DNA of 64,000 nucleotides. It comes from Brachionus koreanus. Taxonomy: Eukaryota > Rotifera > Eurotatoria > Ploima > Brachionidae. The position numbers were made by a program, and so were the translations under genes. The notes below the pieces were generated by a model. That model was not told the DNA's origin. It saw only the letters and a list, made by a program, of their open reading frames with translations, and did no database searches. Below, one piece after another: positions 10,794 to 60,025 of the stretch. The stretch's first letter is position 1, and every line of letters starts with the position of its first letter. Where the stretch lies: contig PJRA01000453.1 of NCBI GenBank assembly GCA_016987375.1, forward strand, positions 1,270,148 through 1,334,147, given 5' to 3'.

Positions 10794-10941
10794 TTCAATT
10801 TAAAATTAACAATTCTATTGTCAAATGAATATTTAACTACGAAAGTATAAATCAGGCAATTTTTATTTTAAAAATAAAAAATTATTCATGGAATTTAAAA
10901 AAAAACATATTCAACAAAAATAGATAATTATTTTTAAAAAT

Positions 10942-11431: not shown

Positions 11432-11541
11432 CAAAATTTAAAGGCCTTTTTCAATTTTAAAATAGCAAAAAAAAAAAAGAGACTGAGAATTAAAAGAGTA
11501 AAGTTAATCTAATTTGAAACTAGGATACCCTGAGAATTTGT

Positions 11542-14500: not shown

Positions 14501-14672
14501 TTTTGATTTCTAAATTAGATTTTAGTGAATTAAATTCAAAAACTGACGACGTTTGATCAACTGTCTCGTTCGATTCATTCTTAGTCGATTTAGTGTTTAT
14601 TTTGTTATTATTGTTTATTAAAGATTTCTTTTTTAACTTAATGCATTCATCTTCTGCGCTCATATTACTCAA
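11542..14672 (-). CDS. MLLT10: AF10/AF17-type chromatin reader (PHD-zinc knuckle-ePHD plus OM-LZ)
   Basis: Two exons, 14672-13416 and 12891-11542, joined by a 524-nt phase-0 intron, give about 868 residues. Residues 71-125 are a PHD finger (GGCCVCGDD, LLVYCDG, CKVAVHQCCYG, DDSWYCGSC). A zinc knuckle (CELCPCRDGALK) and an extended PHD (WAHVVCALYVPE, CSICQN, GCKEWFHVTCAQ) follow to about residue 270; this is the PZP module that reads unmodified H3K27 in AF10. Exon 2 contains the octapeptide motif-leucine zipper (SLEELLKKQW, then heptads through KLLEQTNLENEHMNKKL) at about 610-680, which in vertebrates recruits DOT1L. The tail is Gln/Asn/Ser rich. Drosophila Alhambra is the insect counterpart. 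Domain order is complete. Confidence 0.94.
12892..13415 (-). other. Long intron of the AF10 gene
   Basis: 524 nt, much longer than the typical introns here. Donor GTAAGC at 13415 and acceptor TTCAAG at 12892. Only AT-rich sequence is seen, with no ORF or repeat. Confidence 0.7.
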
Positions 14673-38900: not shown

Positions 38901-41900
38901 CATATCTTGCACAGAATGAATTTAAATGTAAGCTAGAACAAGCGTTTTTACTTGGTATGAAAAGTTCAAATGTTAAAATGAGACAAAAATTTTACGATTT
39001 GTTTAATCGAAATTTTCAATCAAGTGATTTATATGAACGATTGTGTTTTATTATAGTAACACAAAATTGGGAACTATTTGGTACTTATTATTGGATAAAA
39101 CAGTGTATTCAATTAACACTTGGATCTTGTTACAATTCAAGTTTTGTGGGCACATTTGAGCCTAAATTTTTGAGTCTAATTGAAGCACAAAATTTGCCTA
39201 CAAATTACACTAATTCATCAATGCATACAGAAATCAATTCTCATAATTATCATATGCAAACTGAGGATCGACATTCAACTACATTAGATATTTGTCTACC
39301 ATCAATAGCTCCATTAAATTTTGAAATAGATTTTTATAAAAAAGGTATTTATTGTTTTTTTTTTCTTCTTTTTCGTTTTTCGTTTTCACTCTTATTTTTA
39401 ATTGATTTAAATTAAATTTAAATTTTTTTTTACTCTATTTTAAAAAAGACAAATTTTTGAACATCTATTCACAAGAAAATAACAACGAAGAAAACAAAGA
39501 ATCAATGGAAATCGATCAAAAATCTTTTAGAAACGATCTAATAACAAAATTGTTCAAAATAGAAAATTATCTATTAAAAAATGCAAAAAAAATCAAATTG
39601 TCTAATCTAATAGATCCTCTATGCAATATTTGTCACATAAATGTTGATCTATCTCATTCGATATGGACTCAAATTTTTTCAAAATTTTTCACTTTGTTTA
39701 ACGAAAAACAACAAATAAATCTAATTAATGAATTGACACCATTTTTTGCATCCGGAATTCATTGCATACAAAAAAATACGCATCTAAGTGTATTAAACAC
39801 ATTTTGTGAATCAATTGTAGAAAATGGTGAATTAAATTCACCTTTTGCACACATTCTCAAACCATCTCTTTTAAGCTATTTAGCTAAAAATCACAATTTA
39901 TGGCATAGATCTGTGCTTTTATGCGAAAATCAGTATTTAATTGAGTCAAATACAGATTTATTACAAGTTTTGATTCATCTATTAAATATTCTCAAAGAGG
40001 ATGACTTAAAAACAGGTCTTTTAATATTCAATAGGACAATAAATGATCCCACTCGAATAGCTTTGATATACGAGCAACAGGGTATGTATTTGCAAGCTCA
40101 AAAATTGTTCGAAGATATGATCTCAAAAAATATCGATTCGTATTTGAACGATAATTTGGGCAAAGAACAAGTTCTGGAATCAAATTTATGGGAAGAAAAA
40201 TGGGTAAGATGTTGTAAAGAACTGAATCAATGGAGTGAATTAAGTGAATACATATCGGCCAAAGATAACGATTTGAGTTTAAAATTAGAATGTGCTTGGA
40301 AATCTCAATCTGATTGGCAAATAATGAAAACTTGTTTAATTACACAAAAAGAAGCCAACATTCCAAAAGATCAGCTCTGGAAATGGTATTTGTATCAAGG
40401 CTACTATTTGGTTTGCAATCCTGATGATTTGCATCATTTGATGCTGCAAAGTCAATCGGTTTTTTCACTATCTGCAACAATTGAATCCAAAGTTGAAAAA
40501 TGCATGATATCTGCTTTGAAAGAATGGAGACGCTTGCCCAAATTGATAACACCTGCGCATACTTCACTGCTTCAGGCAGCTCAACAAATAATTGAATTAC
40601 AAGAAGCTTTTCAAATTCAACAAAATTTAATAGCAACACACATAAATCAAACACAAGCACTTCAAGAAACAAAAGGCATCATTAAAACTTGGCGAACTCG
40701 TTTGCCATTAATTAACGACGATCTTAGCTATTGGAACGATATATTTCAATGGCGACAATTTCATTATGAATCATTTACAAAGTATTTTGAAAAACCAAAT
40801 GGCAGCCAACAACAACCAAATTCAAACCAGGCAATGTTAGGCGTACATGCACTTGCCCAAGGTAATTTACTATTTTGATAAATTTTGAGTTTTTTTTTGT
40901 GGTTCAATTTAAATTTTTCCTAATCTAAAAAATAAAATTAGAGGAAATGTCTTTTTTAAAATTATTAAGAAATTTCAAAAAACTCTTTTCGACTAAAGTC
41001 TCTAAATTAAGGCAAATTGAAGTTTACGATCAAATTAAAATGATCATGCTCAAGAGTTATCACTGAAAAAAGATTTTAAAATATTTTTCAGTAAAAAATT
41101 TATTGCAGAAGCATGTTTTCAATGTAAACATTCAATGCTTAACTTGATTTTTTATGTCNNNNNNNNNNNNNNNNNNNNNNNNNNNNNNNNNNNNNNNNNN
41201 NNNNNNTGCTAAACATGAAAACATTTTTCTGCATTTAATTTTTCATTTAAAAAACTTCTTAGAAATATGTAAAAAAATTATATTTGAGCATGATCATAAA
41301 ATTTTGATCATAAGCTTCAATATGCCTAAATTAATTACATAAATTCGACTAAAAATAAATCCAATTATATTTAAATATTTCTAAATTTCGAATTTATTTT
41401 AAAAGAACAATTTTCGTTCAGAGCTTTTTATCCTAACCCCTCTCATCCACTATTTTTTTTTTTTAAACGAAAATATTAAATACAAAACAAAACAAATAAA
41501 CATTAAAAGTAGTCAAAAATGCATATTTTATTAATTTGAAAAAAAATCATTTAACACTAATAAACTTATATTTTAAAAAGGTATTGTTAATTTTGGCAAA
41601 ATTGCGCGAAAACAGCATTTGTATGACGTTTGCCTAGAAACATTGAACAAAATCCACAAAAAACAATCGGTACCCATAATTGATTGCTTCTTAAAGGTTA
41701 AACAAGAAATAAAATGCTATATTAATACATATGAATATTTGAGTCCAAAGCAAAGCAAAGAAATACTTGATTTAATTGAAGCGACCAATCTTCAATATTT
41801 TACAAAGGAAAGCGTAGCAGAATTAATATCTTTAAAAGCACAGTTTTTACAGTTGAATAATAAATTTGATGAGGCCAATCATTTATATTCGTTTTCAATT

Positions 41901-44548
41901 TATTTGAATGATTCATCAGCAAAATTATGGGGTGCATGGGCGGACTATTTAACTCAAGCGTTTGTAGATGTAACAAGTAGACAAGTGTATTCGTCACGTT
42001 CAATTGAGGCAGCCGAATCGGCTCTAATCGGCTTAATGAATGCTGCACGACACACTGGCGGCGAAGCAAAAACTCGCAAATATATTGCCAAAATATTCTG
42101 GTTGCTTAGCTATGACAACGAAAAAAGAGATCTCTTTAGCCAATTTGAAGCGCATGCTTTGTCAGCTATTGCGGTCCAAAATTGGATTCAATGGATTCCT
42201 CAATTGATAACACTAATTCTAAAAAATGACGACAACGGAAAATATTTGTACGGTCTTATAAATCAAATTATTCGTCAATATCCTCTAGCAGTCTATTATC
42301 CGCTTAGAACATTGTATTTCAAAATAAAACAAGACGAGCATGCTGACAAAATAAAACAACAATTGTTTTCGCAACAAAAGCACCAAGTTGACACTCAAAA
42401 CGAATTTAAAGAAGCTAAATCAAGCACATCATTTGATTCACTTGTACGTGGTGTTGTGGGTTTAATGCATGTTCAACGTGAAATGCATCCACTTTTATTT
42501 AATACTATTGAAGGCCTTATCGATCAGCTACTTATGCTCAAGTGTTCTTGGCACCAGGATTTACTCAAGAATTTTAAAAACACATTAAACTATGTGTACA
42601 CTTTTGCGTACGAAGTCAATCTAAACAGAAAGGTTGGTTTTAACATTTATAAAATAGTTTTAAATTTACTTTTTTATAAAAATAATTAAAATTAATCAGA
42701 AAGAATGAATGGGCTATGATCGAATTCAATCAAAAAATTATAATTACTAATTATTATTTTCTAGTTAGATTATATAAAAAATAATTTTAATTTTCAATTT
42801 TATTTTTTTAAATTTTTATGAGAAAAAAAATTCTATTAATTCAAAATTAAATTAGACTGAGTTAAAAAAAAAAACAAAAAAAAACAATAAATAGATAAAC
42901 GATATTTTAAATTTGATTTTTATTTTAAAATTTAAAATTTATATTATTAATATTAAATTCTTTTAAGAATGATTTTATTGAGACTATCGATCCATTCTCG
43001 ATCATATGGTTCAAAAGGATACACAAATTTTACGTTGATTTTCAATACCTTCAACTACCAAATCGATTGAATGCACAACAAAATTCTCCGTTGACAAGTA
43101 GCGCTTCTTCACCATTAACGCCAACATCAGCTGCTAGTCAACAAACCACAAGTAATTCATCGGGCGCTCAAAACCAACAAAACACACGACTTAAAAGCTT
43201 AATCGCCATTCTAAACGATCCTAATCATCAATCAACAAGACAAAAATTTCAACAAGATTTTCCTTTTAGCCAAAATACAGGCTCACAACAACAAATTAAT
43301 ATAAAAGTGTTTATAGATAAATTAAAATCTTGGATAAAAATGCTCCAAGTTTATAACGACCTAATGATACCTAAAACAAGTCTATTAGATGAACGATTTA
43401 AACTAGTGTCGCAATTTTGTTCGAGCACTGCTGAAATTGAACTACCCGGTGAGTATTTGGTTCCACGATCGACAAATTACTACGTTAAAATAAGTAGATT
43501 TTTGCCAATATATGAATCAGTTGAAAAGCATCAAATATTTTGCAGACGCATATCAATACGTGGCCATAATGGAAAAATATATCCATTTTTAATCATGAAT
43601 GAGCCAAATCATTTTTATGAATCAAGAAAAGAAGAGCATTGCTTGCAAGTATTTCGAATCATGAATACTTATTTGAACAAACAAAAAGAAAGCTCAAGTA
43701 GATCATTGAATTTTATTACACCAAGAATGGTCAGTTTATCCTATGATTTTCGAATGGTAGAAGACGAACCTAGTTCATTGAGTCTTCTAGACATTATAGG
43801 ACCTGATCTAAAACAAAAATGTTTGGATGCATATTTTTGCGAGCGCAGTACAAACTCAAAACTTGAGTTATTTAAGTTCATTAACGAGTCTATTTTGACA
43901 AAAAATTTTCTCAAAAAATGGGCAACTCAAAAATATACAAATTCTTGTGATTATTTCAATTTTAGAAAATTGTTCACTCAGCAATTGTCAATTTATAATA
44001 TTAGTGAATTTATTTTGGGTTTAAGCAGTCTGAAACCGAGCCAGTTTTATTTGAGTCAAAGTTCAGCTATTTGTCAAACAATTCGATACAAATTTGATTT
44101 AGATGAAAAATTGTCTCAAAGTTCGAAAATCGTTCCGTTTCGTTTGACACCCAATCTACTTGAATTTATTCAACAAGCTTCTGTTTATGGACAAATGGGA
44201 GCTGCAATGACAGCTTTTGCAAAATGCTTATACCAGCCACAATATGGATTTATTTGGATATTGAGAACCATACTAAAAGATGAAATACTTTATGCACTAA
44301 TAAGAAAAAAACATGAAGACTCAATTAAAAGTGCAACACAATTATCTATTTCCAATTTGAGTTTCGAATCAGAACAAGAAAATGTGGTAACTTTAGTAAA
44401 CAAGCTAGTTGGAACTATTGAATTAAGACTAAAAGAATGTGCAAATATGGATAATGGTAAGAATTATATTTTAAATGAGTTAATTCCAAAAGCGATGAAA
44501 ATTGAAAACTTATGCGAAATAGATCCAAATTGGTTTCCATGGTTTTAG
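29931..44548 (+). CDS. TRRAP: TRRAP / Tra1, pseudokinase scaffold of SAGA and NuA4/TIP60 complexes
   Basis: Ten exons with consistent phases: 29931-30975, 31038-31306, 31367-32925, 32997-33675, 33757-33909, 34082-35334, 36463-39344, 39449-40861, 41581-42632 and 42968-44548. The product is about 3961 residues; human TRRAP is about 3860, so this is full length. TRRAP is a nuclear PIKK-family scaffold that recruits histone acetyltransferases to activators. Exons 1-8 encode the HEAT and FAT solenoid (for example ENEENVILCLKIIVEFYKN near residue 120). Exon 9 starts in the FAT part (QGIVNFGKIARK over the splice). Exon 10 holds the kinase-like domain, with RRISIRGHNGKIYPFLI and RFLPIYE but no catalytic HxD/DFG equivalents, as expected of this pseudokinase, and ends in a FATC-like tail, DPNWFPWF. 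Intron 2 (31307-31366) is 60 nt, divisible by three and stop-free. Introns 6 and 8 are long and carry fold-back repeats. AATAAA at 44558-44563 and 44628-44633. Confidence 0.97.
35335..36462. repeat. TRRAP intron 6 with imperfect fold-back repeat
   Basis: This 1128-nt intron contains inverted similar segments. About 35499-35570 pairs with the reverse complement of about 35818-35867, sharing TTTTGTGAAATTT, AGAGCA and ATGCTA blocks. TGCAACATTC near 35597 pairs with GAATGTTGCA near 36055. The arrangement resembles a decayed non-autonomous DNA transposon inserted in the intron. Exact ends were not found. Confidence 0.45.
40988..41353. repeat. Fold-back (inverted repeat) element in TRRAP intron 8
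   Basis: Left arm 41011-41054 and right arm 41283-41325 are inverted copies (the right arm, reverse complemented, shares GATCATGCTCAA and TTGAAG). The arms continue inward with a second matching block (GCAGAAGCATGTTTTCA near 41107 against the complement of a segment near 41209-41230). The apex falls in the 48-N gap. The ten bases TTCGACTAAA occur directly repeated outside both arms (40988-40997 and 41344-41353), as a target-site duplication would. A third, solo copy of the arm lies at about 44731-44800 after TRRAP. Confidence 0.65.
41159..41206. other. Assembly gap (48 N)
   Basis: A run of 48 unknown bases at the tip of the fold-back element in TRRAP intron 8, presumably lost because of the hairpin. 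It does not touch coding sequence. Confidence 0.99.
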
Positions 44549-46982: not shown

Positions 46983-47280
46983 GGTTAGGGTTTAGGGTTG
47001 CCTAGATTTTACTATAAAAAATAGTAAAAAAAAATCTAGCTATTAAGTTTGTCAAGTCTGTCTGTCCGTCCGTCCGTCAGTTGACAGGCCAAAATCGTCA
47101 AACGGAATGAGCTAGAGAGCTGAATTTTTGTACAGACAATGTCCAAGTGATGAGAAGGTGGCTTGCAAAAAATCAGAGCGATAGGCCACTCTCTTCTCAA
47201 AATAGGACAATTTTACGATAAAAAACGTCGATTTACGGACAAACAAAAGGATGTTTCACAAAACCAATACGAAATTTGAT
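46983..47280 (+). repeat. Dispersed transposon-like repeat, copy A
   Basis: Begins GGTTAGGGTTTAGGGTTGCC, followed by an 11-13 bp hairpin (CTAGATTTTACTAT ... ATAGTA...AATCTAG), then CTGTCTGTCCGTCCGTCCGTC and a unique body (GGAATGAGCTAGAGAGCTGAA, GTGATGAGAAGGTGGCTTGC). It aligns over about 290 bp with copy B at 48553, at close to nine bases in ten by eye. The right end seen in copy B is absent, so this copy is truncated. It encodes no protein. Confidence 0.75.
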
Positions 47281-47409
47281 TATCATCGTCTTCCCTATAT
47301 TTCTCTACTGCATTATTTTTAAACTGCATTTTTTTTAAATTGTTTGTATTTTGAGTTTGCAAAAAAAATCGTAATTGCATATGAATTGCAAAACCTAGCT
47401 CATATAAAT

Positions 47410-48280
47410 AAAGCTTAATGCTTAAAATATTTTATTAAAACTTTTTGTGTTAATTTTTAAATAAAATTAGTTATAAATCGAAAATTTCTAAGTTAATTAT
47501 ATTTATTTAATTTAAAAAAAATTAATATTATTGAAAAATAATCAAGGTAATATCACATTTCATTTTATTCATTGAGTTTTTTGTTGTGCATGTATTGGTC
47601 GAAGTATTACATATTGGTGTAGCTCCTGTGCAATCACTATTTGTTAAGCAAGCTTTACAAGAACCAGTACTGATTAAAGTATCACAAATTGGTTTGGTAG
47701 GATCAAGGCAATCACTTCTATCTCTGCAAGCTCTGAAAAACCCAAACCCAAGACCAAATGCAGGAACACAGAATGGTTTGGTAGATTCAGGGCATTCACT
47801 CCTTTTAGTACAAGGTCTGCAAGTACCATTCACGCCTGTTGTATCTCAAATAAATGCGATAGGATTAAGGCATTCACTATTTATTAAGCAAGCTCTGCAA
47901 GTACCATTCCCGCTTGAAGTATCACAAAATGGTTTGGTAGGTTCACTTTTTTCAAGGGAATGCAAATTTAAATACTAAAGAAATATTTAAGATTAAAAAG
48001 GTAAGAATTTTTATTCTCATTATCTAAAAATAATTATTTTGAATAATTTAAAACAAATGGATTTAAAACACTATTAACGATTTTTGAAAATCTCTACTTT
48101 TATTTAAGTAACTATTTTTATTAAGCTTTCTCCGATAACTAAATTTATGGTTTTTAGAAATGGAACGATCCGATTTTTATTGCTTATTTTATAAATAAAC
48201 CTAAAGCTTAATGCTTAAAATATTTTTTTAAAAGTTTTAGAAAATCTGTGCTAATTTTTAAACAAAATTTCTTAAAAAAA
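47410..48280. repeat. Direct repeat pair flanking the Cys-repeat fragment
   Basis: The segments 47410-47480 and 48209-48280 share AAAGCTTAATGCTTAAAATA and a following TTAATTTTTAAA block in the same orientation. They bracket the Cys-repeat pseudogene, so the fragment may have been moved or duplicated together with this repeat. Confidence 0.5.
47528..47978 (-). pseudogene. Fragment of a cysteine-repeat (extracellular-type) protein
   Basis: The minus-strand frame encodes at least three repeats of a Cys pattern, each roughly CxxCxxxSxCxxPTKPxCDTxxxxGTC (for example CRDRSDCLDPTKPICDT and CKACLTNSDCTGATPICNT). Such repeats are typical of secreted disulfide-rich proteins. The frame is broken: in-frame TGA at 47848-47846 stands exactly where the repeat needs a Cys codon (TGT/TGC), and further upstream the frame slips near 47955. 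No signal peptide or start is visible. It is flanked by two direct copies of another repeat (47410-47480 and 48209-48280). Remnant of a gene, or an exon island of one. Confidence 0.6.
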
Positions 48281-48552
48281 TTAAACAAGCTCTGTTCATT
48301 CAATTTTGGTTGCCTCTTGACAAAAGTTGAACACGTGTCGACAATATGTAAGGTTGTTTTTTTTTAGTTAAATCCTGTACCAATACGTACATTAACTACT
48401 TTTGTTTTCAAAAATGATTTTTATTCAATGCCGACAAAATGAAAGGTTGACAACAAGAAACTAAAAATCAAATTTAAAAAAATAAACAAACATTTTTCAT
48501 TTATTAATTTTATTCAGTTATATTTTTATCGTATTGAATCGATTGACTCGGC

Positions 48553-48965
48553 GGTTAGGGTTGCCTAGATTTTACTATAAAAAAATAGTAAAAAAAATCT
48601 AGGTATTAAGTTTGTCGAGTCTGTCCGTCCGTCCGTCTGTCCGTTGACAGGTCAAAATCGTGGAACGGAATGAGCTAGAGAGCTGAAATTTTGTATGAAC
48701 AACGTCCAAGTGATGAGAAGGTGGCTTGCAAAATTTCAGAACCAAAGGCCACTCCCTTCTCGAAATAAGACAATTTTTTGCAAAAAAACGTCGATTTACG
48801 GACAAACAAAAGGATGTATCACAAAACCAATTACCAACCAATTTGATTTTCTCATCAAAAATTACATTAGAAAATATATTTTATCAGGCTGAAAATAATT
48901 GACCAATGGTCAAAAAAAAAACACTAGTTTTAAATTGCATAACCCTAGTTTTAGTAAAATCTAGG
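48553..48965 (+). mobile_element. Small non-autonomous transposon-like repeat, copy B (about 413 bp)
   Basis: Left end GGTTAGGGTTGCCTAGATTT; right end TTAGTAAAATCTAGG preceded by AACCCTAG. The two ends are inverted versions of each other (CCTAGATTTTACTA with adjoining AGGGTT), giving a MITE-like unit. Behind the left end comes a local hairpin and the GTCCGTCC tract as in copy A. It carries no ORF of its own. It ends 20 bp before the 7.15 kb element. Confidence 0.65.
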
Positions 48966-48984
48966 CCAAATAAATTTTTTTAAA

Positions 48985-49188
48985 AGAACAATACCGGATT
49001 TCTGATAAAAACTTGCCCCTTATATTTTAAGCCTCTGTTAACCCTAAAACAAATTTATAATATACCATTCGATAGCCTTTTTTATATAAAATTGATTTTT
49101 TAAAAATATGATTAACCTTGGTCTTTAAAACTTTTCCAATTTGGAAATAAACTATAAAAAATTCAGACAAATCTAACTTAACATTTTG
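48985..49188 (+). repeat. Left terminal inverted repeat of the 7.15 kb element
   Basis: Matches the reverse complement of 55931-56134 along its whole length. Shared landmarks are AGAACAATACCG, AACTTGCCCC, CCTGTTAACC/CTGTTAACCC, CCAATTTGGAAATAAA and AACTTAACATTTTG at the inner end. Confidence 0.85.
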
Positions 49189-49325
49189 CATTTTAATTTC
49201 TAATAAATTGCTTTTTGGATAATGACATGTTTGTTTTTCTAAGTATATAAATCACAAACAATGCTTCATTTTTAAGTTTTTTTTCTTTACTTAAGCCGAA
49301 AAATTAAAATTGAAATATTGAAAAA

Positions 49326-49961
49326 ATGGCAATTAGCTTTAGCGACTATTTTAGATCTATACAAACTTCCTCAACTGGTTCAAGAATAAGTTCATCCGCC
49401 GATTCATTTTTTAGTTCTCCTGTCGATTCAGCAATTGGCTCTTTTAGTTCAAATTCTAATTCAGAAGAATTTGATTATAAAATTAAAATTCAGGGGACAT
49501 TGAATAATATTTTGAAAAAATTCATTGAAAAAAATGAAACGTGGTCGTTAAGCCTTAGTGATTGGATTCATTTTCACAAAAATCAAAATATATTAATTAT
49601 CTTGATACTTATCAATTTAATAATATCAATTGTTTTTTTCAGTATTAAATTGTGGAGAAAAAAAGAAATATCTATTTCGAATCAAAAATATAAAAACAGC
49701 CAAGTGTTAAATAAAAAAGCTGTGATAAAAATGGATTCAGATAATAAAATTCTTATGAAAAAAAACAAGTTTTTTTACGAGTTTCTTTTAATTGATTATT
49801 TTAAATATTTCATTTAGAAAGATTCGGTAGTATTAGATATACCAGAAGTACATTCAATTGGGATTGATTTGCCAAAGACTATACTAAAGTCGAATTCATG
49901 TCAAACAATTTGTGTTGAAGACTCAATTGAGTTCAAGGCTATGGCTAAATCTTTTTTATAA
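49326..49961 (+). CDS. Ser-rich single-pass membrane protein of the element (unknown)
   Basis: ATG at 49326 follows a TATATAA box (49244-49250) by 76 bp, just inside the left inverted repeat. The first 47 residues are Ser/Phe/Asp-rich (SSTGSRISSSADSFFSSP). An amphipathic stretch follows, then one clear membrane helix, ILIILILINLIISIVFF, and a basic flank WRKKE. The frame meets TAG at 49815, but a second exon starting after TTTCATTTAG at 49818 continues in the same frame to TAA at 49961 with coding-like sequence (DIPEVHSIGIDLPKT). A phase-0 donor is needed upstream; CAA|GTGTTA at 49704 is one possibility. Topology suggests an exposed N-terminal part and a short tail. No family recognised. Confidence 0.55.
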
Positions 49962-50203
49962 AAAAAAGTTTTTGAAAATTTTTTCATTATATATATGTAA
50001 ATATTGTAATTAGACCTTTTTGTATCATTGTAAATCCTGATTAAAAAAAATAAGTAAATAAGTATTTATTTTTTTGCGACTTATATTGTTTTGGATAATA
50101 ATAAATTAAACTAAAAGAAAGATTAAAATATTTTTTGCTTTTTTTATTAATGTTTTAAAAAAATTTTTAAAATCAAAATACAAAAAAGTCAACTTTTTTG
50201 TTA

Positions 50204-51034
50204 ATGTTATTTTTTATTGCTTGTTTTTTTTGTAAATATCAATTTAAAAGCCATATTTTTATGTATATGCTATTAAAAAACCTTTCTAAATCTTTTGATT
50301 TAATTCAAATAAAAAATTATTTGTCTAATTTAAAAATGAAATATAAATTCAAAAAATGGCAAAAGAGATTTTTTTTAAAAGATCAAATGGTCAGTTGATA
50401 AAATTAGTAATTTGTTTAAATTAAAGTTTTTTAATAATTTTTTAAAAAAAAGATATGGTACAGCAAGCACTAGTTTGGTGTATATGTGAAAATTCAGTTC
50501 TTGGAGTATATTGGGAAGAGAAAGAAAAACTATTTATAAAATATATAAAAATGGATAATGTTCTCAAACACCATGAAAAAATAACTTTTTGTTCAATTCT
50601 TTCTAGAATTTGTTTAATCAAATTAAAAACAATTTTCACAATTCTAGCTATCTTTTTATTTTTAAATGGAATTGTTAACAATTACCAAAGTTTTGATAAT
50701 GATTTTAGGCAAAGTTTATTGGAAAAAAAAGATTCTACATTTGATTTCATTTTTCAAGTAAAATGCAAGAATAATGCAACGATTTTAAATGTTTAAAAAA
50801 TAATTTTTTTAAAATAATTTTATTAATCACTTAATTTTTTAGGCTTTTTTCAAAACAATTTTGGATATTGGTGAATGTGTTTCGAGTTTTTTTGGAATAA
50901 TTATCAATTCTTTTACATCTAAAACATTCAATGGACTTGGAATAATTGATTTCTTCAAGTTAATGAGTGGTATTTTGACTGTTTGTCTATCAGTTTCATT
51001 TTTTCAGATTGTTGTTTTTCTGATGCATAAATAA
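50204..51034 (+). CDS. Multi-pass membrane protein of the element (unknown)
   Basis: I read three exons, 50204-50393, 50453-50757 and 50843-51034, with matching phases, giving 228 residues. Hydrophobic segments are at the N-terminus (MLFFIACFFCKY), in the middle (IFTILAIFLFLNGIV) and at the C-terminus (LMSGILTVCLSVSFFQIVVF). The third exon adds ILDIGECVSSFFGIIINSF. The last splice (CAA|GTAAAA ... TTTTTTAG|GCT) is clear; the first (donor AGTTGA) is weak, and the true start may be an ATG in exon 2. Unknown family. It lies between the other membrane-protein gene and the homeodomain gene, inside the inverted repeats. Confidence 0.5.
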
Positions 51035-51145
51035 AACAATAATTTGTTGTTTAAAAATTAAAATATTTTTTTTCATCAAATTTTTTTTATTAATAATTTA
51101 AAAATAAAAAATAGACTTAAAATTAATAATTTTTTAAGATCAAAA

Positions 51146-51528
51146 TTAGTAAATTTTTTTTAAATTATAGCGTTTTTTAGTGAACCAATACGCTATTTTT
51201 TTCTTATCTAAACCAGTTGACTCTGAAAGTAATCCTATTTCGTCAATTTTCGGCCGTCTACTCTTGTTAAAAAAGAAGTCTGACAATATAAATTTTTGTT
51301 CAAATGAAATAGAATTTTTTCTTTTATTCTCTTTTTTCATTTTTAGGCATCTTCTTTTATTCTTCAACCATTGTCCAACTTGTTTATAAGTCAAATTACT
51401 CTCTTTCGCCAATTTTTTTTTTGTTTCCATGTCCGCATATGGATTGTCAAAATGTTGGAAAAACCATTTCTCTAATATATATTTTTTTTTTTATTTTTTA
51501 TTGTCTTTTATTTACCAAAATTGTTCAT
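51146..51528 (-). CDS. Tandem homeodomain mini-protein
   Basis: Two exons, 51528-51516 and 51471-51146, encode about 112 residues. Residues 1-40 form the second half of a homeodomain: helix II and III read NPYADMETKKKLAKESNLTY and QVGQWLKNKRR, closest in style to TALE/SIX-type domains (NPY...LA...LT..QV..W). Residues 50-112 form another: ISFEQKFILSDFFFNK, then LSESTGLDKKKIAYWFTKKR. W-F and basic recognition-helix residues are kept, but the usual WFxNRR Asn-51 is Thr in the second domain, while the first keeps N. The protein is almost nothing but DNA-binding helices. It is the only gene on the minus strand of the element and ends back to back with the membrane-protein gene. A regulator or accessory DNA binder of the element is the inferred role. 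Confidence 0.75.
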
Positions 51529-51588
51529 ATTTTTAATGAAAATAAGAGAATATTTAGTCAATAGAAATTTTTTTGAAAATAGAGAGAA

Positions 51589-52458
51589 ATGTTCAATTCT
51601 AATATCGTGATTTTCCTTTTTTCTTATGTTCTTGCCTTAATGGAAACTTCGCCATCTGCAATTCATTTTATTAGACAAAAATGAGATACTTCTTTCCAAA
51701 AAGGCCCATTGAATAATTTTCAAATTCCTTTGGTCAAGGATGCGCATCTTTTCGTTTTTTCATCTCCACAGTACTGTCAAAAAATTGAGGAAATTACTAT
51801 TGCCGACAATTATACATTTAATTGTAATGAACTTTATCTGCCTATTAATTTTTATCCCAAATAAATAAAGAATAGAAAGGCAAAAAAAAACTTCATTATT
51901 TGGATATCTCCCACTTCAAGGTGGTCAAATATCAGATCATCAAAAATACACTGACGAATCTAGAAAAGTTCGAAGGTAAATATAAAAGAAGATTTAAGTA
52001 TTGAGACTTAAAAAGGTATTTTTATAATAAAGGTTTTCAATAAATGAACGATTCGATTTGATTTCTGTAGATGAAAATATCATTCTTTCGGAAAAGAGAA
52101 AAAATAATGTAATAATAAGTAATGAATTTTTTGCAAATTCATATTATTTTTCCTGGATGCTTTTTAAATTCCGAATTTATGATGAAGAAACTGATAGTTC
52201 TTTCTATTTTCTGGCTTTCAAAGTATAATTTCTGATTAAAATCCTAAAACAATTACAAATTTTAATTTTTAGGATTTTGTCTTTTACATTATGTGTGCTC
52301 AATATTTGTTAGCTTTCTGCAATTTGTACAGAGCTTATGTTTATCTTTTAGAAAATTACGATATGATTAAGCAAAGAGAATTTGACAATGAAGAAAATTC
52401 GAAAAAAAAATTTAAAATAAAGCAAAATAAGACAAAATTTTTTATTTATCCAATTTAA
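51589..52458 (+). pseudogene. Broken secreted/membrane protein gene of the element
   Basis: Starts at ATG 51589 with a textbook signal peptide (NIVIFLFSYVLALMETSP). In-frame TGA at 51682-51684 interrupts it, yet the same frame stays open to 51864 with two Cys and aromatic content (PQYCQKIEEITIADNYTFNC). A further coding-like frame then starts near 51880 (FGYLPLQGGQISDHQKYTDE), is spliced at 51975/52033 and 52222/52273, and ends at TAA 52458. Its third exon has a moderately hydrophobic stretch (DFVFYIMCAQYLLAFCNLYR) that could be a membrane anchor. The nonsense codon and the frame change between 51864 and 51880 suggest a decayed copy. Family not recognised. Confidence 0.5.
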
Positions 52459-52528
52459 ATTTTTCAGACATTATGATTTTTCTTAATAAATTGAAATATA
52501 AAAAAAAATTTAGATTATTTTTTTTAAA

Positions 52529-55472
52529 ATGCCAAAACATAACCAAAGAAAAGGAAACCTTTTAAAAACAGCTTTTTCCTCTCACAAGAAATGTTTTATC
52601 TGTAGAGTTCCAAATACTAAATGCTCATTAAAAAGAATAAAACAGGAAACAATTGTTGATGCTTATTTAAATCATCGAATTTTTATTAAAGAACATGCAA
52701 GATGTTGCGTTTCACATTTTGACCATAACTGGTTAATTAGAAAAGAAGATTTTAAATTAATAACTTTTAAATTAATTAAACCGACACGAAATATTTTACT
52801 AATGTTAAATTTAATCTTAAATTATCAAAAAAGAATTTTTGATCAATTCATTAACATAGATCTTTTAAACGATGACATTTGCATAAGATTACTGGCTGGA
52901 CTAAGGAGCAGTTTTTAAATTTTAGTGATTATATATCGAGTGTGAATGATTTTTACGGACGAACAAAAGAGCAGCTAGTAGCAATTTATCGTTATTGGTT
53001 AAAAAAAGGTATAGATCAAAATTCATTGGCCTTATTATTTAAAAATAATAAGACTCAAAATCAGATAAGTCATTATCTTAAACAGATAAGAAACGCAATT
53101 CACAAGGATTTCGTTCCTTTTTTCCTTGGATCTAAAAGGGAAAGAAATTTTTTTTTTCTCATAATAATTCAACTGTAAAAGAGCTATTCAACCTCCGAAA
53201 AGAAGATCTTGCTGTTTTTGCAGATGGAACGTATTGCAGATGTGAAAAAAGCTCAAATAATCAAGTTCAGTACGATTCTTATAGTTCTCAGAAAAACGAT
53301 TCACTTGTTAAGCCATTTTTAATTTGTTGCTCTGACGGTTACATTATTGATTGTTATGGTCCATTTAAAGCAAATATGAATTATGCAACTATTCTAGAAT
53401 TTATTTTAGATAAAGTGAAGATTTACTAAACATATTAGAACCGGAAAAAACATTTTTTCTTTTAGAAAGAGGTAAAAAAATATTTATTAGAATTTAATAT
53501 TTGGTTAAATAATATTATATTATAGGTTTCAGAGATATTTATTCAAAATTAAAAGAAGACTATAATTTTCGAACTTTTTTACCAACGTGCAAGCAACTTG
53601 AGAATTTAAAAAAAGATGAAATTAGTAGAGATAACCAGTTGACTGTCGAACAGAAAACACAAAGTCGATTTGTTACTAAAGTAATTGTCAAACCAAATTT
53701 TTTCATGTTTAATAGATAAAATAATTTTTAAAGTGTCGATTTATCATTGAAACTGTAAATGGAAAATTGAAAAGGTTAAAAGCATTGGATAACATTAGAA
53801 ATACACAATTAAATGACATCCAAAAAGATTATAGAAATGCTTGTGCAATGATTAATTTTTTACATAAGCCTTGTAATCCTGATGGCAAAGAGGGACGTAT
53901 CATAGCAAAAAAAATGAAAGTAAGAGCGGTTATAAAAACAAATGAGCTTGAGTTTTTGTTGAATAAGAGATTAGATACTAAAATGACAGAGCAAATTAAA
54001 TTATCGAAAATTAATGATTTTCCAAAAATTCCAATAAAAACTATATTAGAAGATATCCTTTTTAGAACGTATCAATATAAGGAGTGTCAAAGCTATTACG
54101 AAGATTTATTAGATATTGGATATGAATATCTTTTAAGTAAAAAAAACATAGAAAAAAACTCTGGAGATAGAAACATAAAAATAATAGCATTTGAAATATC
54201 ATCACGGCATACAAGAAGTGAAGTAAAAAATCCTCCTCTCCAAAAGGTAAATTTATACTCTAGAAAACGGCATTTTAAGAGAAATTACAAAGTATTTATC
54301 GAATATACGCCAAATATAGATTCACCTGCTTCTATAAAAGGTTTGTAAAATTTTTCATAGGATAAATTATAAAAAAACTTTAAAGGATATATCTGTAATT
54401 GTATGTCTGGGAAAAAAGTTGTTGGAACATGTGCTCATGTGGCAGCTGAAGTTTGTTATTTATCATACGACAAATATCATCATTTAATTTCAAACTCTCG
54501 TTATCTTCAAGACATTTTTATAGATAAAGATAGCAATGATCTACCGAATGTTCCTAAACAAATACAAAATAAAAGACGGAAAGTTGGACAAAATTTAAAG
54601 AAAAAAATTGTCAGAAATAAAATTTTACCAACAAAAACAGAAAATGATGGAAAAAATACGAAAATTGATTTTTTTGAAAATCATAATGCACCATTTATTG
54701 AGCTTTTTAAAAATAGAATTCACAATGTGGAGGCAAATATCACTTATAAAGGAATGTCAAACATCAAGTTAATAAATACTTGTTCGATTGATAACTTTCT
54801 ATTTTCCTTTTGGTGTGTATCAAAAATAACTTTATATTATCATTACCCAGTTAAGATTCAACTAATTCTTTAATAAAAATAATTCGATTTATTGATATTA
54901 ATAAATGGGATAAGGCCAGAGACCTCTGTGTAAATAAATTTATGAAACTGAATTATAAGTTGAGTGATAATGCAATTTCTTTTTTTCGTTCTGAAGGAGA
55001 TAAAAAAATAAAGTTTTTATCATCCTTTCAGATTCTTAAATTGATTCAACCATGCAGTCAAAAATGCATATTGAATAAAAACTTAATTCTTAGATATAAC
55101 TCAGAATTAATATTTTTTGTTAAGTTAAATAATGTAGTTAAGCTTGACTCATGCTTTACAGCTAATTGTCCAACTTGTTTAGAAGAAATTAGGTGTGACA
55201 TAGAATTTCAAAAGAATCCTAACTTTATTTTTATTAAGTCAAAGAACTTAGATATTTTATTAAAAGATATTCCAGAGGAAATTGAAGTTGGGAAAAAAAA
55301 ATTTAAACTTTTAACTACAACTATCATGAGATCAAATCATTTCATTGGAATATTTAAAATAAAAGAAAATTCTTATATAGTTGATGATCTAAAAAAAAGC
55401 ATAATAGAAATAAATAAAAAAAAAGAATTTCTTGAATATCCAATAAGTTCAACGTTTTACTTTTTAATTTAA
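52529..55472 (+). pseudogene. Transposase-like gene: zinc N-terminus, HTH, DDE, SWIM finger, USP-like peptidase (frame-shifted)
   Basis: Read in order from ATG 52529. An N-terminal CxxC...CCxxH segment comes first. A helix-turn-helix of HTH_Tnp_4 type follows (TGWTKEQFLNFSDYI, SLALLFKNNKTQNQISHYL). The DDE_Tnp_4 catalytic domain shows ADGTYCRCE for the first acid, LLERGFRDI for the second, and ETVNGKLKRLK for the third. A SWIM-type zinc finger (CNCMSGKKVVGTCAHV) is next, after the intron at 54341-54385. Last is a C-terminal domain with a USP-like Cys box (NTCSIDNFL), a CxxC (NCPTC) and a His/Asp box (NHFIGIF ... YIVDDL). Introns at 53472-53525, 53681-53733 and 54341-54385 are clean. Four single-base frame changes (near 52876, 53150, 53420 and 54855) break the gene. 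It may be dead, or the assembly may be faulty at homopolymers. Confidence 0.7.
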
Positions 55473-55930
55473 ATGATTTCTTTATTATTAATTTTACTGC
55501 AAACTTTTTTAATTTTTTAAATAAAAACAATTAAGTTAAAATTAAAAAAATCTTTTTTTTGTAATAATATTTTTTGTTTTATTAATTTTTATATATCAAC
55601 AAAAAATTCGGCTGTTTTTTAAAACTCATTACTATCCAAAACACAGGATTAATCTGATTTTATATTGTCATGGTAAATTTAAATCCTGCGACTACAACAT
55701 TATATCTATTAAGTCTATTTAAAAAAAAACTGTTCAAAATAAACTTGAATTAATACTTGAAACAATATATGAAAAACAGATTATTTCAATTGTTGAATGA
55801 TATATTAAATATTTATTTATTAAAAAATTTATCAAATGGAAAAAACTTTTTATTTTACTCGAATACATATAATTTTTAAAAAAAAGGAATAGAGAATCCT
55901 CTTTTAGAAAAAAAATAATTATTGCTAAAT
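55473..55930. other. Gene-free stretch inside the 7.15 kb element
   Basis: 458 bp between the transposase stop and the right inverted repeat. AT-rich, no ORF; it presumably holds the 3' UTR and polyadenylation signal (AATAAA near 55518-55523). Confidence 0.5.
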
Positions 55931-56134
55931 CAAAATGTTAAGTTAAATTTGTTTTAATTTTTTGCTTTTTATTTCCAAATTGGTAAAGCATTAAAGACCG
56001 ACATCAATTTTATATTAAAAAAATCAATTTGTTATATAAAAGGCTTTCGAATGATATATTTTAAGATTGTTTTAAGGTTAACAGGGGCTTAAAATAAAGG
56101 GGGCAAGTTTTTAATAGAAATTCGGTATTGTTCT
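55931..56134 (-). repeat. Right terminal inverted repeat of the 7.15 kb element
   Basis: Inverted partner of 48985-49188, the same length, ending TTCGGTATTGTTCT. Confidence 0.85.
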
Positions 56135-56583
56135 TTCTTTATAAAAAATAGAAATTACAAAAATAAGAGAAATTTGTCGAAATTAAAAAATTTACTTGTT
56201 TTTTTAAAATAAAAGTCCAAAAATTAATTATTCAACAAAGAAACCATGTTTAATAATTTCTATATCAAAAAATTTTCTGAATAATTTTTCTTAATGCTTA
56301 TTATTTTTTCTAAAACCAATTAAATCTTAATTTTGTGTTTGAAATAACGAAAATTTTTTATTTTAAATTTTAACATATAATTTTAATGATCAAATCATTT
56401 TGAAAATTAAAAAATAATTGATTTTTTATACTCTTGTATTTTAACTTAAATAAATAAATTTCTTTATAATTAATAGAAATTAGAAAAATAAGAGAAATAT
56501 TTCCAAATTAAAAAATTAACTTGTTTTGTTAAAATAAATGTCCAAAAATTAATTATTCAACGAAGAAACCATGTTTAATAATT

Positions 56584-56682
56584 TGTAACTCGTGAGAGTC
56601 AGGGAGAAGATTTAAAATACTGAGTGATTTATAAACGGTTTATTAGAAAACTCTGTTTTATTTGAGTGGGGTACGAGTTACA
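56584..56682 (-). repeat. 3' LTR of the Ty3/gypsy element
   Basis: 99 bp, bounded TG...CA on the element strand, containing AATAAA-type signals. About 9 percent diverged from the 5' LTR by eye, so the insertion is old. Confidence 0.88.
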
Positions 56683-56887
56683 TCCCTCCCCCGTTTTTTT
56701 TTTTTTTGTTTTTTTTTATTAAATTTAATTGTCTCATCGTCAATGATGAGATTAATTGAAAATGGTAATATAAATGAAACCTTATATACTTAATTATTGA
56801 CGATACTGAGTTAATAATAGTATTAAAATGGTCAAATACAATAAATATAAAAAAAATTTAAAGAAAGATAAATATTTTGTCAAATCT

Positions 56888-57205
56888 CTATTTATGGATT
56901 CTCATATTTGATCCTAGCGCACCACCTGTCTTAGTCTGAAATCCACACACTTTGCATTTGAATTCGGCTAGACCTTTGTTTGAATTTGTCACTGTGGTCT
57001 CGTGTGCATTTTCATTCGGTTTTATCTGCGGTGAACCGTAAATGGTTTGGTCCGCTGATTTTTCTTCCTCCGTCTCTTGAGCTTCATTTTCGTTATCTGA
57101 GCTACTTCGTTCATTTTGCATTATTTCGTAATCTGTTTTAAAGCCACTCGTCATCTTCAAGGACGTTTTCATTATCTTGTAAAGTATTATTCTCTCGTTC
57201 ATCAT
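56888..57205 (-). CDS. C2H2-like zinc finger ORF at the end of pol
   Basis: 105 codons directly downstream of the integrase frame, separated by a frame change. Acidic Ser/Glu-rich sequence is followed by one finger-like motif, FKCKVCGFQTKTGGALGSNM with RIHK after it. The two Cys and last His of a C2H2 finger are present, but the first His position is Asn. It may be a C-terminal extension of integrase or a separate product. Part of the decayed element. Confidence 0.5.
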   Translation of the reverse strand: MMNERIILYKIMKTSLKMTSGFKTDYEIMQNERSSSDNENEAQETEEEKSADQTIYGSPQIKPNENAHETTVTNSNKGLAEFKCKVCGFQTKTGGALGSNMRIHK

Positions 57206-57206
57206 A

Positions 57207-58787
57207 TCATAATACCATACGGTTATAATGAACTACTTGTGTCTTTCCATTTTCTTTGTTCTTGATCTCATAATTTACCTCATTGATCAATCTAGATACC
57301 ACAAAAGAACCAATTAATTTCTGCGTGAAACTACGGACTTCACCGACTTTTTGCCTTGAATTTACCAACATCACTAAGTCACCAATTTTGTATCTTACGG
57401 CTTCTCTTATTTTATTATCGTACTGTTTTCTTTGTTTCTCGTGGCTTTTTTCAAATTTCTTTTGAACATCTCCTGCAATTTCTTCCCCGGATTTTTCAAT
57501 ATGTGGTGGCTGAATTTCGAGCTTCCTGTCACTTGTTGTTGATAGAACTTTTCCAAAAATTATTTCATTGGGACTATAACCTGTTGATTCGTGTATAGCG
57601 TTGTTGTATCCAAAAGTCACTTCACCCAGAATCTCGTCCCAATCATCGTGTGATTTTGACACATATAGGCTTAACATTTGTTTTATTGTCTTTATTGTTC
57701 TTTCTGCTAGGCCATTACACTGTGGGTGATAAGTTGTGGTTCTAATCTTCAAAATTCTTCCATAATGCTGTGGTATTTGCAAAATTCTTCGAATACCTTT
57801 GCTTCAAAGTTTTTACCTTGATCACTAAGAATTGCGTAAAGAGATCCATAGATTTCAATCATTTTCTTTTTAATAAATATTTTTGTTTCCTCGGCTGTTA
57901 TTCTTGGTACGGCTAGAGTGATACAAAATTTAGAAACGTAGTCAATCAACAAGAGAAAGTAAATGTTCCCCTGCTTTGTTATTTTAATGGCCCAGCAGCA
58001 TCAATCCATACTAAGTCCCAAGCATTTTTAACTTGAATTGTAATTAGCTTGGTCCTGTTCGTGTGATTTTTTTGTTAAAATTTTTGACAAAGATCGCAAC
58101 TTGCACAATAATCATAAATCTCAGACCTCATCCTTGGCCAATAGTACCTGAGGGTAATAGCTTTATAAGTCTATTAAAACCTAAATTTATTGCAGTAATA
58201 GAATCATGGTATAGTTGACAAATTTGTCTTCTTAAATGCTTAGGTACTACTATAACATCTTCGCCATGATTGTTCTTAAGCATCAGAGTATTATTCTTAA
58301 CGCTTAAAAGGTACTTATAAGATTCGCAAAATTTCGCTTCTTCTAGTTCATTCAAGTCTTTTATATCACCCGTCTTGATAGCCATCTTTACAAGTGCAAC
58401 TTCTTTATCCTTGTCTTTTTCGTTATCCCACTCAACATCTAAATTAACATCTAATTTATTTACCTTGACAGCCTTTTTTATATTGTCGTTGGGTCTTGAT
58501 AATAAGTCAGCTGTTTTGTTTAGCTGCCCTGGCAAATAGATTATTTTATAGTCTAATTCCTGTATTTTTAGCAGTAGCTTATACAGTCTTTCATTAGGTT
58601 CTTTTGATTTTTCAAGTGTTGCCAATGGCTGGTGGTCTGTGAAGAATTGGATAGGTTTTCCATAGATGTAACTGTTAAATTGTTTTGATGCAAATACTAT
58701 GGCAAGCATTTCTTTCTTACTTGTAGTATAAGTTTTTTGTGTTTGTTCAATTTTCGACTTGCGTAGGCTATTGGGTACAGAATTCAT
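57207..58787 (-). pseudogene. RNase H and integrase region of the Ty3/gypsy element
   Basis: Three minus-strand frames in sequence. 58787-58128 holds RNase H (TSKKEMLAIVFASKQF, FFTDHQPLATLE) and the start of the integrase zinc domain (YHDSITAINLGF, where the second zinc His is Asn). CASCDLCQ near 58100 is the zinc-binding Cys pair. 57952-57749 holds the first catalytic Asp (DYVSKF) and second (LSDQGKNFEAKVF). 57782-57207 holds the Glu region (TTYHPQCNGLAERTIKTIKQ) and the C-terminal domain. The integrase core order is D, D, E, but three frames mean at least two frame changes. Confidence 0.85.
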
Positions 58788-58905
58788 TTATTGTCTGTAC
58801 TAGTACTGCGCCAATTGCATCATTTGAGGCATCGGTATAGATTTCAAACTCTAGGTCAAAATTTGGATTTTTTAGTATTGGTGCCATAACAAGCCTGCCT
58901 TTGAG

Positions 58906-60025
58906 TTAGTCAAAAGCTTTTTGACATTCGTCTGTCCACAAGAAGGTTGTCTTGTTCTGTGTTAAGTCAAAAAGGCTTGCTGCTATTTTACTAAAGCTTG
59001 GAATGAATCGTCTGTAATAGGAAAGCATTCCCAAGAATCTTTTAACGCCTTTCTTATCTTTTGGTGGTTTTAAGTCAGCGATTACCTTTGTTTTCTTAGT
59101 GTCTGGGCTTAGGCATTCTCTAGAAATTAAAAATCCAAAATAATTGACTTGTTCCATTCAAAATCTGCATTTTTCAGGCTAAAGCTTTAAGTTAGCTCGT
59201 TTGAGCCTCAAGAAAATCTCTTCAATCCTAGAAATGTGTGTCCCAAAGTCGTTTGAAAAAAGAATAATATCGTCTAGATACACCAAGCATTGTTTCCGTG
59301 TAAGACCACTCAACAGAGTGTCCATTAATCTATGAGATGTTCCTGGTGCATTAACCAAATGGCATCATTTGGAACTGATATAGTCGTTGATTTGCTATAA
59401 ACGCTGTTATGTCTTTATCATTTTGGTTTACTGGAATCTGCCAGTAACCACTCGACAGGTCAAAAGTCGAAAAATATTGTGAGCCACCCAATGCATCAAC
59501 GGTTTCGTCGATCCTCGGTAAGGGGTTTGAGTCCTTAACAGTTAGTTGGTTCAATTTTCTAAAGTTAATACAGAATCTGAATTCTTGTTTGCCTCCATCA
59601 TTTTTCTTTTTCTTTACTAGAATTATTGGACTTGCCCAAGAACTCTTGATCTCCTCAATTATATTATTGTCTAGCATTTGTTTGACTTGTTTTTCGATTT
59701 CAACTTTTGCTGCATCAGGTAATTTATATGACCTCTGTTTCACTGGTTCGGCATCCTTGGTGTTAATGATGTGTTCTGTTAGGCCAGTCTTCCCTGTGTC
59801 GTACTCTGACCACTGAAAAATTGTTTTATCTTTTTCAATTAAAGCTTTCATTGTTTTCCTTTGATGAAGAGATAATTTATTGTTTATTGTTATTTTTTCC
59901 CAATAGATAAATCCATCTTTACATAAATACTTTTCCTCTGGTTCTTCATCAATAACTTCTGCTTCTTCCCATTGACCAAATTCGGTTCCACAATCTACTT
60001 TTACTTTTGTGTCTGAAATATTCAT
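58906..60025 (-). pseudogene. Reverse transcriptase region of the Ty3/gypsy element
   Basis: Frame 60025-59351 shows the RT fingers and palm (SWASPIILVKKK, FRFCINFRKLNQLT, FSTFDLSSGYWQIPV, QFQMMPFG). A one-base frame change at about 59360 precedes APGTSHRLMD and the catalytic YLDD box near 59280-59270. 59157-58906 continues with FGFLISRECLSPDTKK and KGVKRFLGMLSYYRRFIP. Clearly Ty3/gypsy RT, interrupted by at least two frame changes. Confidence 0.88.

Follow-up and report, generated by a model that had tools for sequence, protein, structure and literature searches.

A probable Spy-kind transposon with membrane, secreted-looking and homeodomain genes in the rotifer Brachionus koreanus

In the 64,000 nucleotides of Brachionus koreanus DNA analysed here (the window), two inverted repeats enclose a compact group of genes for a transposase, a homeodomain protein, membrane proteins and a protein with a signal-peptide-like start (Table 1). 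This arrangement raises the questions of whether the repeats and genes form one mobile unit, to which group of transposons such a unit belongs and how it came to carry these genes.

Table 1 Features of the element and its right flank (positions in the window)
Feature	Position	Strand	Basis or remark
Left terminal inverted repeat	48986..49188	+	starts GAACAATACCGG; AAA directly before
Left terminal repeat, subterminal sequence	within 48986..49188	+	TTGCCCCTTAT
Gene 1, protein with one membrane segment	49326..49961	+	sequence reading
Gene 2, membrane protein, hydrophobic segments near both termini	50551..51034	+	sequence reading, hydropathy
Homeodomain gene	51146..51528	-	Pfam; two homeodomains, KN/TALE-like first, then typical
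Gene 4, signal-peptide-like start	51589..52458	+	by eye and hydropathy
Transposase gene	52529..55472	+	broken in window copy
Right terminal inverted repeat	55931..56133	-	terminates in CGGTATTGTTC; TTT directly after
Right flank repeat	56134..56262	+	second copy at 56459-56587, 91% identical

The window element comprises 7,148 bp (48986-56133) and is bounded by two inverted repeats of about 204 bp, as a preliminary description of this DNA had claimed. Its limits widen to 48983-56136 when, in a base-level reading, the flanking AAA and TTT are counted as parts of the element. The inverted pair 48983-49188/55931-56136 has 206 nt with 84% complementarity and no other inverted pair in 47000-58500 comes near it in length, the runner-up having 36 nt and 75%. 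A scan of 48500-56600 against Rfam gave no matches.

A search of the same genome with the left repeat (C numbers denote sequences of this genome) yielded at least four matches, namely the two arms in the window and the two arms of one element on C19, a contig other than that of the window. The C19 element (C19:567901-575925, 8,019 bp) is full-length, has the same ends and the same gene order, and is 96-98% identical to the window copy. It is longer by about 875 bp, and the extra DNA holds a further small minus-strand ORF with a signal-peptide-like start. Since a full second copy with the same ends lies on another contig, the repeats and the gene set are a single mobile unit, as had been proposed. 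Searches of the own genome with gene 1 and a gene-4 exon (both at E<=1) and with the homeodomain gene (E<=0.001) revealed no separate host locus and matched element copies only, the two copies in the cases of gene 1 and the homeodomain gene.

Target-site duplications had been suggested as a further check. None of 2-11 bp was present at the six elements with both ends read, nor was a TWA duplication of the PIF/Harbinger type; AAA/TTT flanks were found instead at all six and at the single ends (4/4). These triplets could be part of the terminal repeat instead of the target. Matches to the end motif with 2-3 mismatches were left out because their number was close to that of the reversed pattern used as control (14 vs 7, all matches counted). 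The second copy of the right flank repeat runs continuously across AAATTT at the point matching the right end of the window element. It appears to offer a view of the unoccupied target, from a single AT-rich repeat with a poor match on its left side. Insertions flanked by AAA and TTT, with no duplicated target, are given as the signature of Spy elements in the passages on this group in PMC11304231 and PMC4482050.

The transposase had initially been likened to those of ISL2EU elements. This assignment was near, Spy being the sister of ISL2EU, but inexact because there is no duplication, the flanks are AAA/TTT and no YqaJ match was obtained by Pfam in eight unspliced window ORFs. ISL2EU proper shows AT duplications and most of its autonomous members have a YqaJ gene, according to passages in PMC4482050; the window element carries membrane, secreted-looking and homeodomain genes instead. 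That it is nevertheless an ISL2EU element proper which lost its duplication through mutation is very unlikely. The THAP-like Cys/His spacing (by eye), the DDE domain and the animal host would all fit, and Repbase places Spy under ISL2EU (a passage in PMC12730594), but the six two-ended elements without duplication include C36/C6/C9, which are ~99% identical, and C8, whose 342-bp terminal repeats are 100% identical, and the missing YqaJ match argues in the same direction.

The transposase consists, in this order, of a C2CH N-terminus (THAP-like spacing by eye; the Pfam scan gave no THAP match), a helical part, a DDE domain, a SWIM-like zinc motif and a C-terminal Cys/His/Asp domain. DDE_Tnp_4 was detected by Pfam in the transposase of the relative C36 (E=1.4e-13), with corresponding pieces in the window, and the structure model of P0002 is integrase/Tn5-like. 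The window gene is interrupted by introns and frameshifts and is changed at one catalytic-motif residue; the gene is broken in both full copies, between which its ratio of non-synonymous to synonymous changes is 0.89. As to the transposase-peptidase that had been proposed, the C-terminal domain does have Cys, His and Asp residues that are invariant across 4/4 aligned rows, together with a Cys-x2-Cys pair in these rows, and the C19 transposase also carries the Cys, His and Asp, but the peptidase was not confirmed by Pfam, PDB sequence search or structure models. Neither Pfam nor PDB sequences gave a match of note for this domain (the PDB rows were taken as chance). The Foldseek match to USP15 had an E of 0.08, with low pLDDT at the C-terminus of the model and no aligned range given, and a second model (P0005, five rows) was set aside at a mean pLDDT of 43.9. 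No USP row was among the 50 VIA-align matches listed, which span mainly residues 299-751. By its motif, the domain may be a cysteine peptidase of the USP/USPL1 type.

The five genes of the preliminary description are present, but introns, frameshifts and an in-frame stop amend their readings. Gene 1 has one short proposed intron (49769-49817), and its window copy carries a frame shift when compared with C19; gene 2 has a proposed intron at 50758-50842 and, in C19, a one-base difference close to its end. Both encode strong hydrophobic segments according to hydropathy, with a peak of 3.18 in the C19 reading of gene 1. Gene 4, with proposed introns at 51976-52032 and 52223-52272, shows an in-frame stop and a 10-bp difference in the window copy. 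Its relative P0019 is about 80% identical to a query which contained 30 wrong-frame residues, because P0019 reads through in frame one stretch that was first modelled as spliced. The homeodomain gene (proposed intron 51472-51515) matched the Pfam families Homeobox_KN (E=3.2e-14) and Homeodomain (E=2.5e-13), and the protein has a 78% identical relative, P0018. Its frame is open in the window copy; in C19, a one-base difference shifts it ahead of the first helix-turn-helix part. The ratios of non-synonymous to synonymous changes between the window and C19 copies were 0.14 for the homeodomain gene (from 5 changes), 0.41 for gene 1 (from 8 changes) and 0.98 for gene 4, whose splicing model is partly wrong.

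This gene content had been compared to a small virus-like or domesticated genome, which our results do not bear out: the eight window ORFs scanned with Pfam matched no polymerase, capsid, packaging or replication family, and lesions are present in both copies. A virus-like element that travels from cell to cell or animal to animal by means of a surface or entry module made up of the products of gene 4 and genes 1 and 2, and that uses the homeodomain protein as a switch, is unlikely. The signal-peptide-like start of gene 4, its several Cys and its RPKR motif, which is present in C19 and P0019 and which we take to be furin-type, would agree with such a module, and so would the hydrophobic segments of genes 1 and 2 and the apparent age of part of the module. 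However, RPKR is absent from the gene-4 readings of the diverged relatives C11 and C32, gene 4 shows no hydrophobic segment >=1.5 past its start by hydropathy, and a scan of viral contigs with P0018 gave no relative, in addition to the missing replication, capsid and packaging families. A long-kept virus-like surface module of processed secreted and membrane proteins with a two-homeodomain switch, serving action at the cell surface or transfer between cells or animals without capsid or polymerase, is rather unlikely; a virus-like transmission role for the cargo is possible.

Relatives in the same genome bear on the origin of the cargo. The cargo-less C36/C6/C9, C8 and C3 resemble the window element in transposase architecture, the TTGCCCC-type subterminal motif and AAA/TTT sites, but those with both ends read measure 3.6-3.8 kb, and no cargo match was seen in this group. 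The C36 transposase gene is intron-free and open over 1,046 aa. The subterminal TTGCCCCTT motif in the long terminal repeats is common to cargo-less and cargo-bearing relatives. C11 and C32 are a strongly diverged second family with the same terminal motif and part of the cargo, and the last 49 bp of the window element match the right end of C11 at 80%. C11's own left end was looked for and not found; a candidate at 2765 was discarded once C32 had revealed the left-repeat sequence. C7 carries only a 32-bp end of the window-element family; in the part of it that was read, which includes 4,048 masked bases, neither cargo nor transposase matched at better than E=0.5.

In C11/C32, a membrane gene, an opposite-strand homeodomain-like remnant and a signal-peptide-like gene follow each other in the order of the window element. 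The single matches are weak to moderate, and it is the order that would make the case for shared cargo. The gene-2-like stretch scored 69 in C32 (as high in 0/500 shuffles) and 53 in C11 (2/500 shuffles; tblastn E=1.0), the homeodomain-like remnant gave E=0.027 (as high in 20/1000 shuffles), and the gene-4 exon was matched in C11 (39% identity, E=7.5e-6) and in C32 (E=0.18 genome-wide). The cargo branch rests on two independent rows, because the window and C19 elements are near-copies, and label shuffles equal it in 47/500. Much of the cargo seems to be an old, retained part of one lineage, because this order is shared and the homeodomain and signal-peptide-like proteins have relatives of ~80% identity.

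A recent capture, in which an ordinary Spy/ISL2EU transposon took unrelated host genes once as passengers without a role, is improbable. The two broken transposases, the number of full copies (two), the neutral drift of gene 4 between them and the shifted homeodomain frame in C19 are consistent with it, and neither gene 1 nor the extra C19 ORFs had a counterpart in C11, C10 and C32. Against it, the gene-2 stretch, the homeodomain-like remnant and gene 4 keep their order and strands in the diverged C11/C32, and searches with gene 1, the gene-4 exon and the homeodomain gene turned up no host locus from which they could have come. It is most improbable that the cargo represents a different element inserted downstream of the left repeat and upstream of the transposase. 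The existence of the short cargo-less relatives would suit such nesting, but the cargo order is common to two deeply separated families, no second long set of inverted repeats surrounds the cargo, and the same three genes yielded no free copy.

The element is probably a Spy-kind cut-and-paste transposon, Spy being the sister of ISL2EU within the PHIS superfamily, and its lineage kept extra genes. The placement in Spy is provisional, the named transposase rows in the comparison being those of Brachionus and Hydra. The transposase would bind the subterminal TTGCCCCTT motif, cut bluntly and then join the ends of the element into the target AAATTT. Most likely, the homeodomain protein serves as a transcriptional regulator belonging to the element itself, and the membrane and secreted-looking proteins as rapidly evolving accessory proteins, whose effect on the host cell or on neighbouring cells would aid the persistence of the element. 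The element moves as a single unit, and its window and C19 copies presumably depend on an outside transposase or are dead.

Described members of the Spy/ISL2EU group are parasites of one or two genes. A branch in which genes for membrane, secreted-looking and homeodomain proteins have stayed in the same order despite deep divergence would represent a new level of gene content, and regulator-like, membrane and secreted-looking cargo, some of it apparently long-travelled, is unusual for a small cut-and-paste transposon. Its retention raises the testable question of what a transposon gains from such a module, for which cargo-bearing and cargo-less relatives in one genome provide a natural comparison of cost and benefit.

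Mavericks/Polintons and Teratorn have terminal repeats and several genes in common with the window element; they are far larger and carry polymerase and capsid-type genes. No transposon with the gene set of the window element appeared in titles and abstract openings on ISL2EU, Spy, rotifer and cargo-bearing transposons, among the matches listed, and in passages of the giant-transposon review PMC6431247 none of the words starts with 'homeo', 'Harbinger' or 'envelope'. Protease-domain transposases are described in passages of PMC2836005, namely Ginger1 (OTU, Ulp1), Mutator (Ulp1) and a Trichomonas protein with transposase_11 and Peptidase C19. Like our element, they combine a DDE transposase with a domain of the cysteine-protease type, provided that the C-terminal domain here is such a domain. 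Unlike here, the DDE domain of Ginger1 resembles Gypsy integrase; these passages mention no cargo of the window-element kind, and 'homeodomain' in them denotes a PHD finger.

The published Spy elements are the closest counterpart. According to the passages on them in PMC11304231 and PMC4482050, intact elements are 1.165-5.91 kb long with one reading frame and terminal inverted repeats of 5-691 bp, and their hosts are arthropods, cnidarians and molluscs. The cargo-bearing elements differ from this description in their size (7.1-8.0 kb), in their five or more genes, in the rotifer host, to which the Spy-type insertion signature would thus extend, and in the C-terminal Cys/His/Asp domain, which these passages do not mention. 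The window element agrees with it in the DDE transposase, terminal repeats within the published range, AAA/TTT flanks without duplication and an invertebrate host, and the cargo-less C36 and C8, with one reading frame and <=5,910 bp, fit the published Spy description.

The terminal inverted repeats reported in the preliminary description were confirmed at 48983-49188 and 55931-56136 (206 nt, 84% complementary). In the AT-rich host genome (83 Mb, 92 contigs), the left repeat gave at least four matches, two within the window element (the transposon copy in the window) and two around C19:567901-575925, a locus of the same genome. The genome search with the terminal repeat, which the preliminary description had suggested, thus revealed a further copy with both repeats. 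The C19 copy lies in the opposite orientation and matches the window element at 97.7% in the left part and 95.8% in the remainder; the similarity ends where the repeats end and the flanking DNA differs. C19 exceeds the window copy by one 875-bp stretch, which C19 has gained or the window copy has lost; the alignment puts it opposite window position 51503, within the intron proposed for the homeodomain gene. This stretch, contained in the retrieved sequences L005/L006, carries a minus-strand ORF for a basic product with a signal-peptide-like start.

Insertion sites were compared in the window element, C19, C36, C6, C9 and C8, the six elements of the transposase group measurable at both ends. 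All six lie between a left AAA and a right TTT, with no direct 2-11 bp duplication at any of them. The four single ends (C11 right, C32 left, C7 right and C3 left) agree with AAA/TTT as well. Each triplet occupies ~8% of the window positions, and, if independence is assumed, six elements matching on both sides would arise by chance with a probability of roughly 7e-14. The repeat at 56134-56262, to the right of the window element, has a second copy 325 bp onward which runs uninterrupted through AAATTT at the corresponding point, so that insertion between AAA and TTT fits; the left side of this second copy matches the left flank of the element poorly. An AAATTT target and blunt insertion with no duplication are described for Spy in two papers (PMC4482050, PMC11304231), and the AAA/TTT flanks without duplication found here are this published signature. 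The subterminal motif TTGCCCCTT is common to the window family, C36/C6/C9 and C11; C32, C8 and C3 have it with a single-base change. The anatomy of the element lends good support to a model in which it would be moved by a Spy-type transposase in a cut-and-paste manner.

Elements measured at both ends and features surrounding the window element
Feature	Location	Length	Remark
Window element	window 48986-56133	7,148 bp	both ends measured
C19		8,019 bp	both ends measured
C36		3,644 bp	both ends measured
C6		3,647 bp	both ends measured
C9		3,646 bp	both ends measured
C8	L048 4058-7812	3,755 bp	both ends measured
MITE-like repeat	window 48563-48967		limits by eye; ends ~18 bp left of window element
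Gypsy-like retrotransposon ORFs (integrase and reverse transcriptase parts)	window 57207-60025		by eye; right of window element
~78-nt repeats within cysteine-patterned ORF	window 47528-47978		minus strand
Long exon run resembling host TRRAP gene	window 29931-44548		by eye

The left part of the MITE-like repeat has an 88% copy at 47000-47268.

The cargo is located between the left repeat and the transposase gene. Gene 1 encodes a single strong membrane segment (hydropathy 3.18) and gene 2 hydrophobic segments close to both ends; all Pfam rows for these two ORFs fell short of the cut-off. The gene-4 protein has a signal-peptide-like start, followed by RPKR in C19 and in its relative P0019. The minus-strand homeodomain gene encodes two homeodomains, the first KN/TALE-like (Pfam, E=3.2e-14) and the second typical (E=2.5e-13). 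This gene is open in the window copy and frame-shifted in C19 by a one-base difference; gene 1 is frame-shifted in the window copy and reads on in C19, and a stop interrupts gene 4 in the window copy only. Genome searches located gene 1 and the homeodomain gene at two places each (window and C19). The gene-4 exon was located at four, these two plus C11 (E=7.5e-6) and C32, where the match lacks significance on its own (E=0.18). In the protein collection, the homeodomain protein had a single relative from outside this genome (P0018, 78%), as did gene 4 (P0019, 82% over 38% of the query), both encoded on contigs of at most 1.7 kb; no named relative of gene 4 was found in that search. The homeodomain protein is plausible as a putative regulator of the element, and the membrane and secreted-looking proteins may, judging from topology only, have an accessory or surface role. 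The boldest reading, virus-like transmission by the cargo module, is quite unlikely.

The cargo-less relatives C36, C6 and C9 (~99% identical to each other, 3.65 kb) and C8 (Spy-type, 342-bp terminal repeats 100% identical, transposase ORF of 1,033 aa) look like young insertions. The ORFs between their ends are the transposase alone in C36, and the transposase and a short antisense ORF in C8. A search with the C36 transposase gave at least 50 matches (44 scored of 169 candidates), among which the neighbourhoods of C36, C6, one C9 copy, C8, C3, C10 and C11 were examined; the remaining matches may include further cargo-bearing families. Close to C36 lies another element-like unit of ~5.7 kb (L025/L026, joined coordinates 9739-15450), which has unfamiliar ORFs and, at its limits, inverted repeats (257 nt at 96%, with shorter neighbours).

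Part of the cargo was detected in a diverged family. C11 has transposase stretches 25-56% identical to the window transposase; its gene-4 exon matches at 39%, and its right end terminates in GTATTGTTC. C32 is a copy of the same family, with three long stretches at 81-88% DNA identity, and retains the left end, a 180-bp stretch that matches the C11 right repeat in inverse orientation. Between this end and gene 4, C32 has a stretch similar to gene 2 (aligned without gaps over 56 residues, score 69, 0/500 shuffles as high); the corresponding part of C11 scored 53 (2/500 shuffles as high). A 41-residue homeodomain-like remnant lies on the minus strand of C32 between genes 2 and 4 (Pfam E=0.027, 20/1000 shuffles as high). 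The single matches are weak to moderate; because order and strand agree, the partial cargo is considered common to both families. Gene 1 was not seen in the C11/C32 family. The remainder of C32 is hidden by masked stretches. C10 is another broken member, interrupted by other insertions. At the DNA level (E<=0.01), the window and C11 families resemble each other only in the transposase, a gene-4 exon, the terminal 49 bp and three short stretches.

The cargo-bearing rows (window, C19 and C11) group as one branch (support 100/100) in a tree built from 23 transposase cores, and the cargo-less rows fall elsewhere. In a label-shuffle control 47/500 were as low, a weak result as the three cargo rows include two near-copies. 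C11 is ~1.36 changes per site distant from the window element, and we infer that proteins recognisable across this distance were probably constrained for much of that time. Window and C19 differ by 2.7%, with non-synonymous/synonymous ratios of 0.89 for the transposase, 0.98 for gene 4 (computed on a splicing model partly contradicted by P0019), 0.74 for gene 2, 0.41 for gene 1 (8 changes) and 0.14 for the homeodomain gene (5 changes). The first two ratios suggest that the transposase and gene 4 have drifted after insertion. The transposase has its best named matches in Brachionus calyciflorus (57% over 82%) and B. plicatilis, and Hydra is represented too; in the tree, C8/C3 adjoin the B. plicatilis row and the Hydra protein stands next to the cargo-bearing branch (93/90, under the star level of the tool). 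The Brachionus matches and the tree position of C8/C3 make a rotifer host probable.

No published transposon with this gene set was found in the literature searched, the coverage of which was incomplete. According to PMC11304231 and PMC4482050, intact Spy elements are 1.165-5.91 kb long with one reading frame, and their hosts are arthropods, cnidarians and molluscs. In contrast to these published Spy elements, the window lineage is larger, contains multiple genes and apparently resides in a rotifer.
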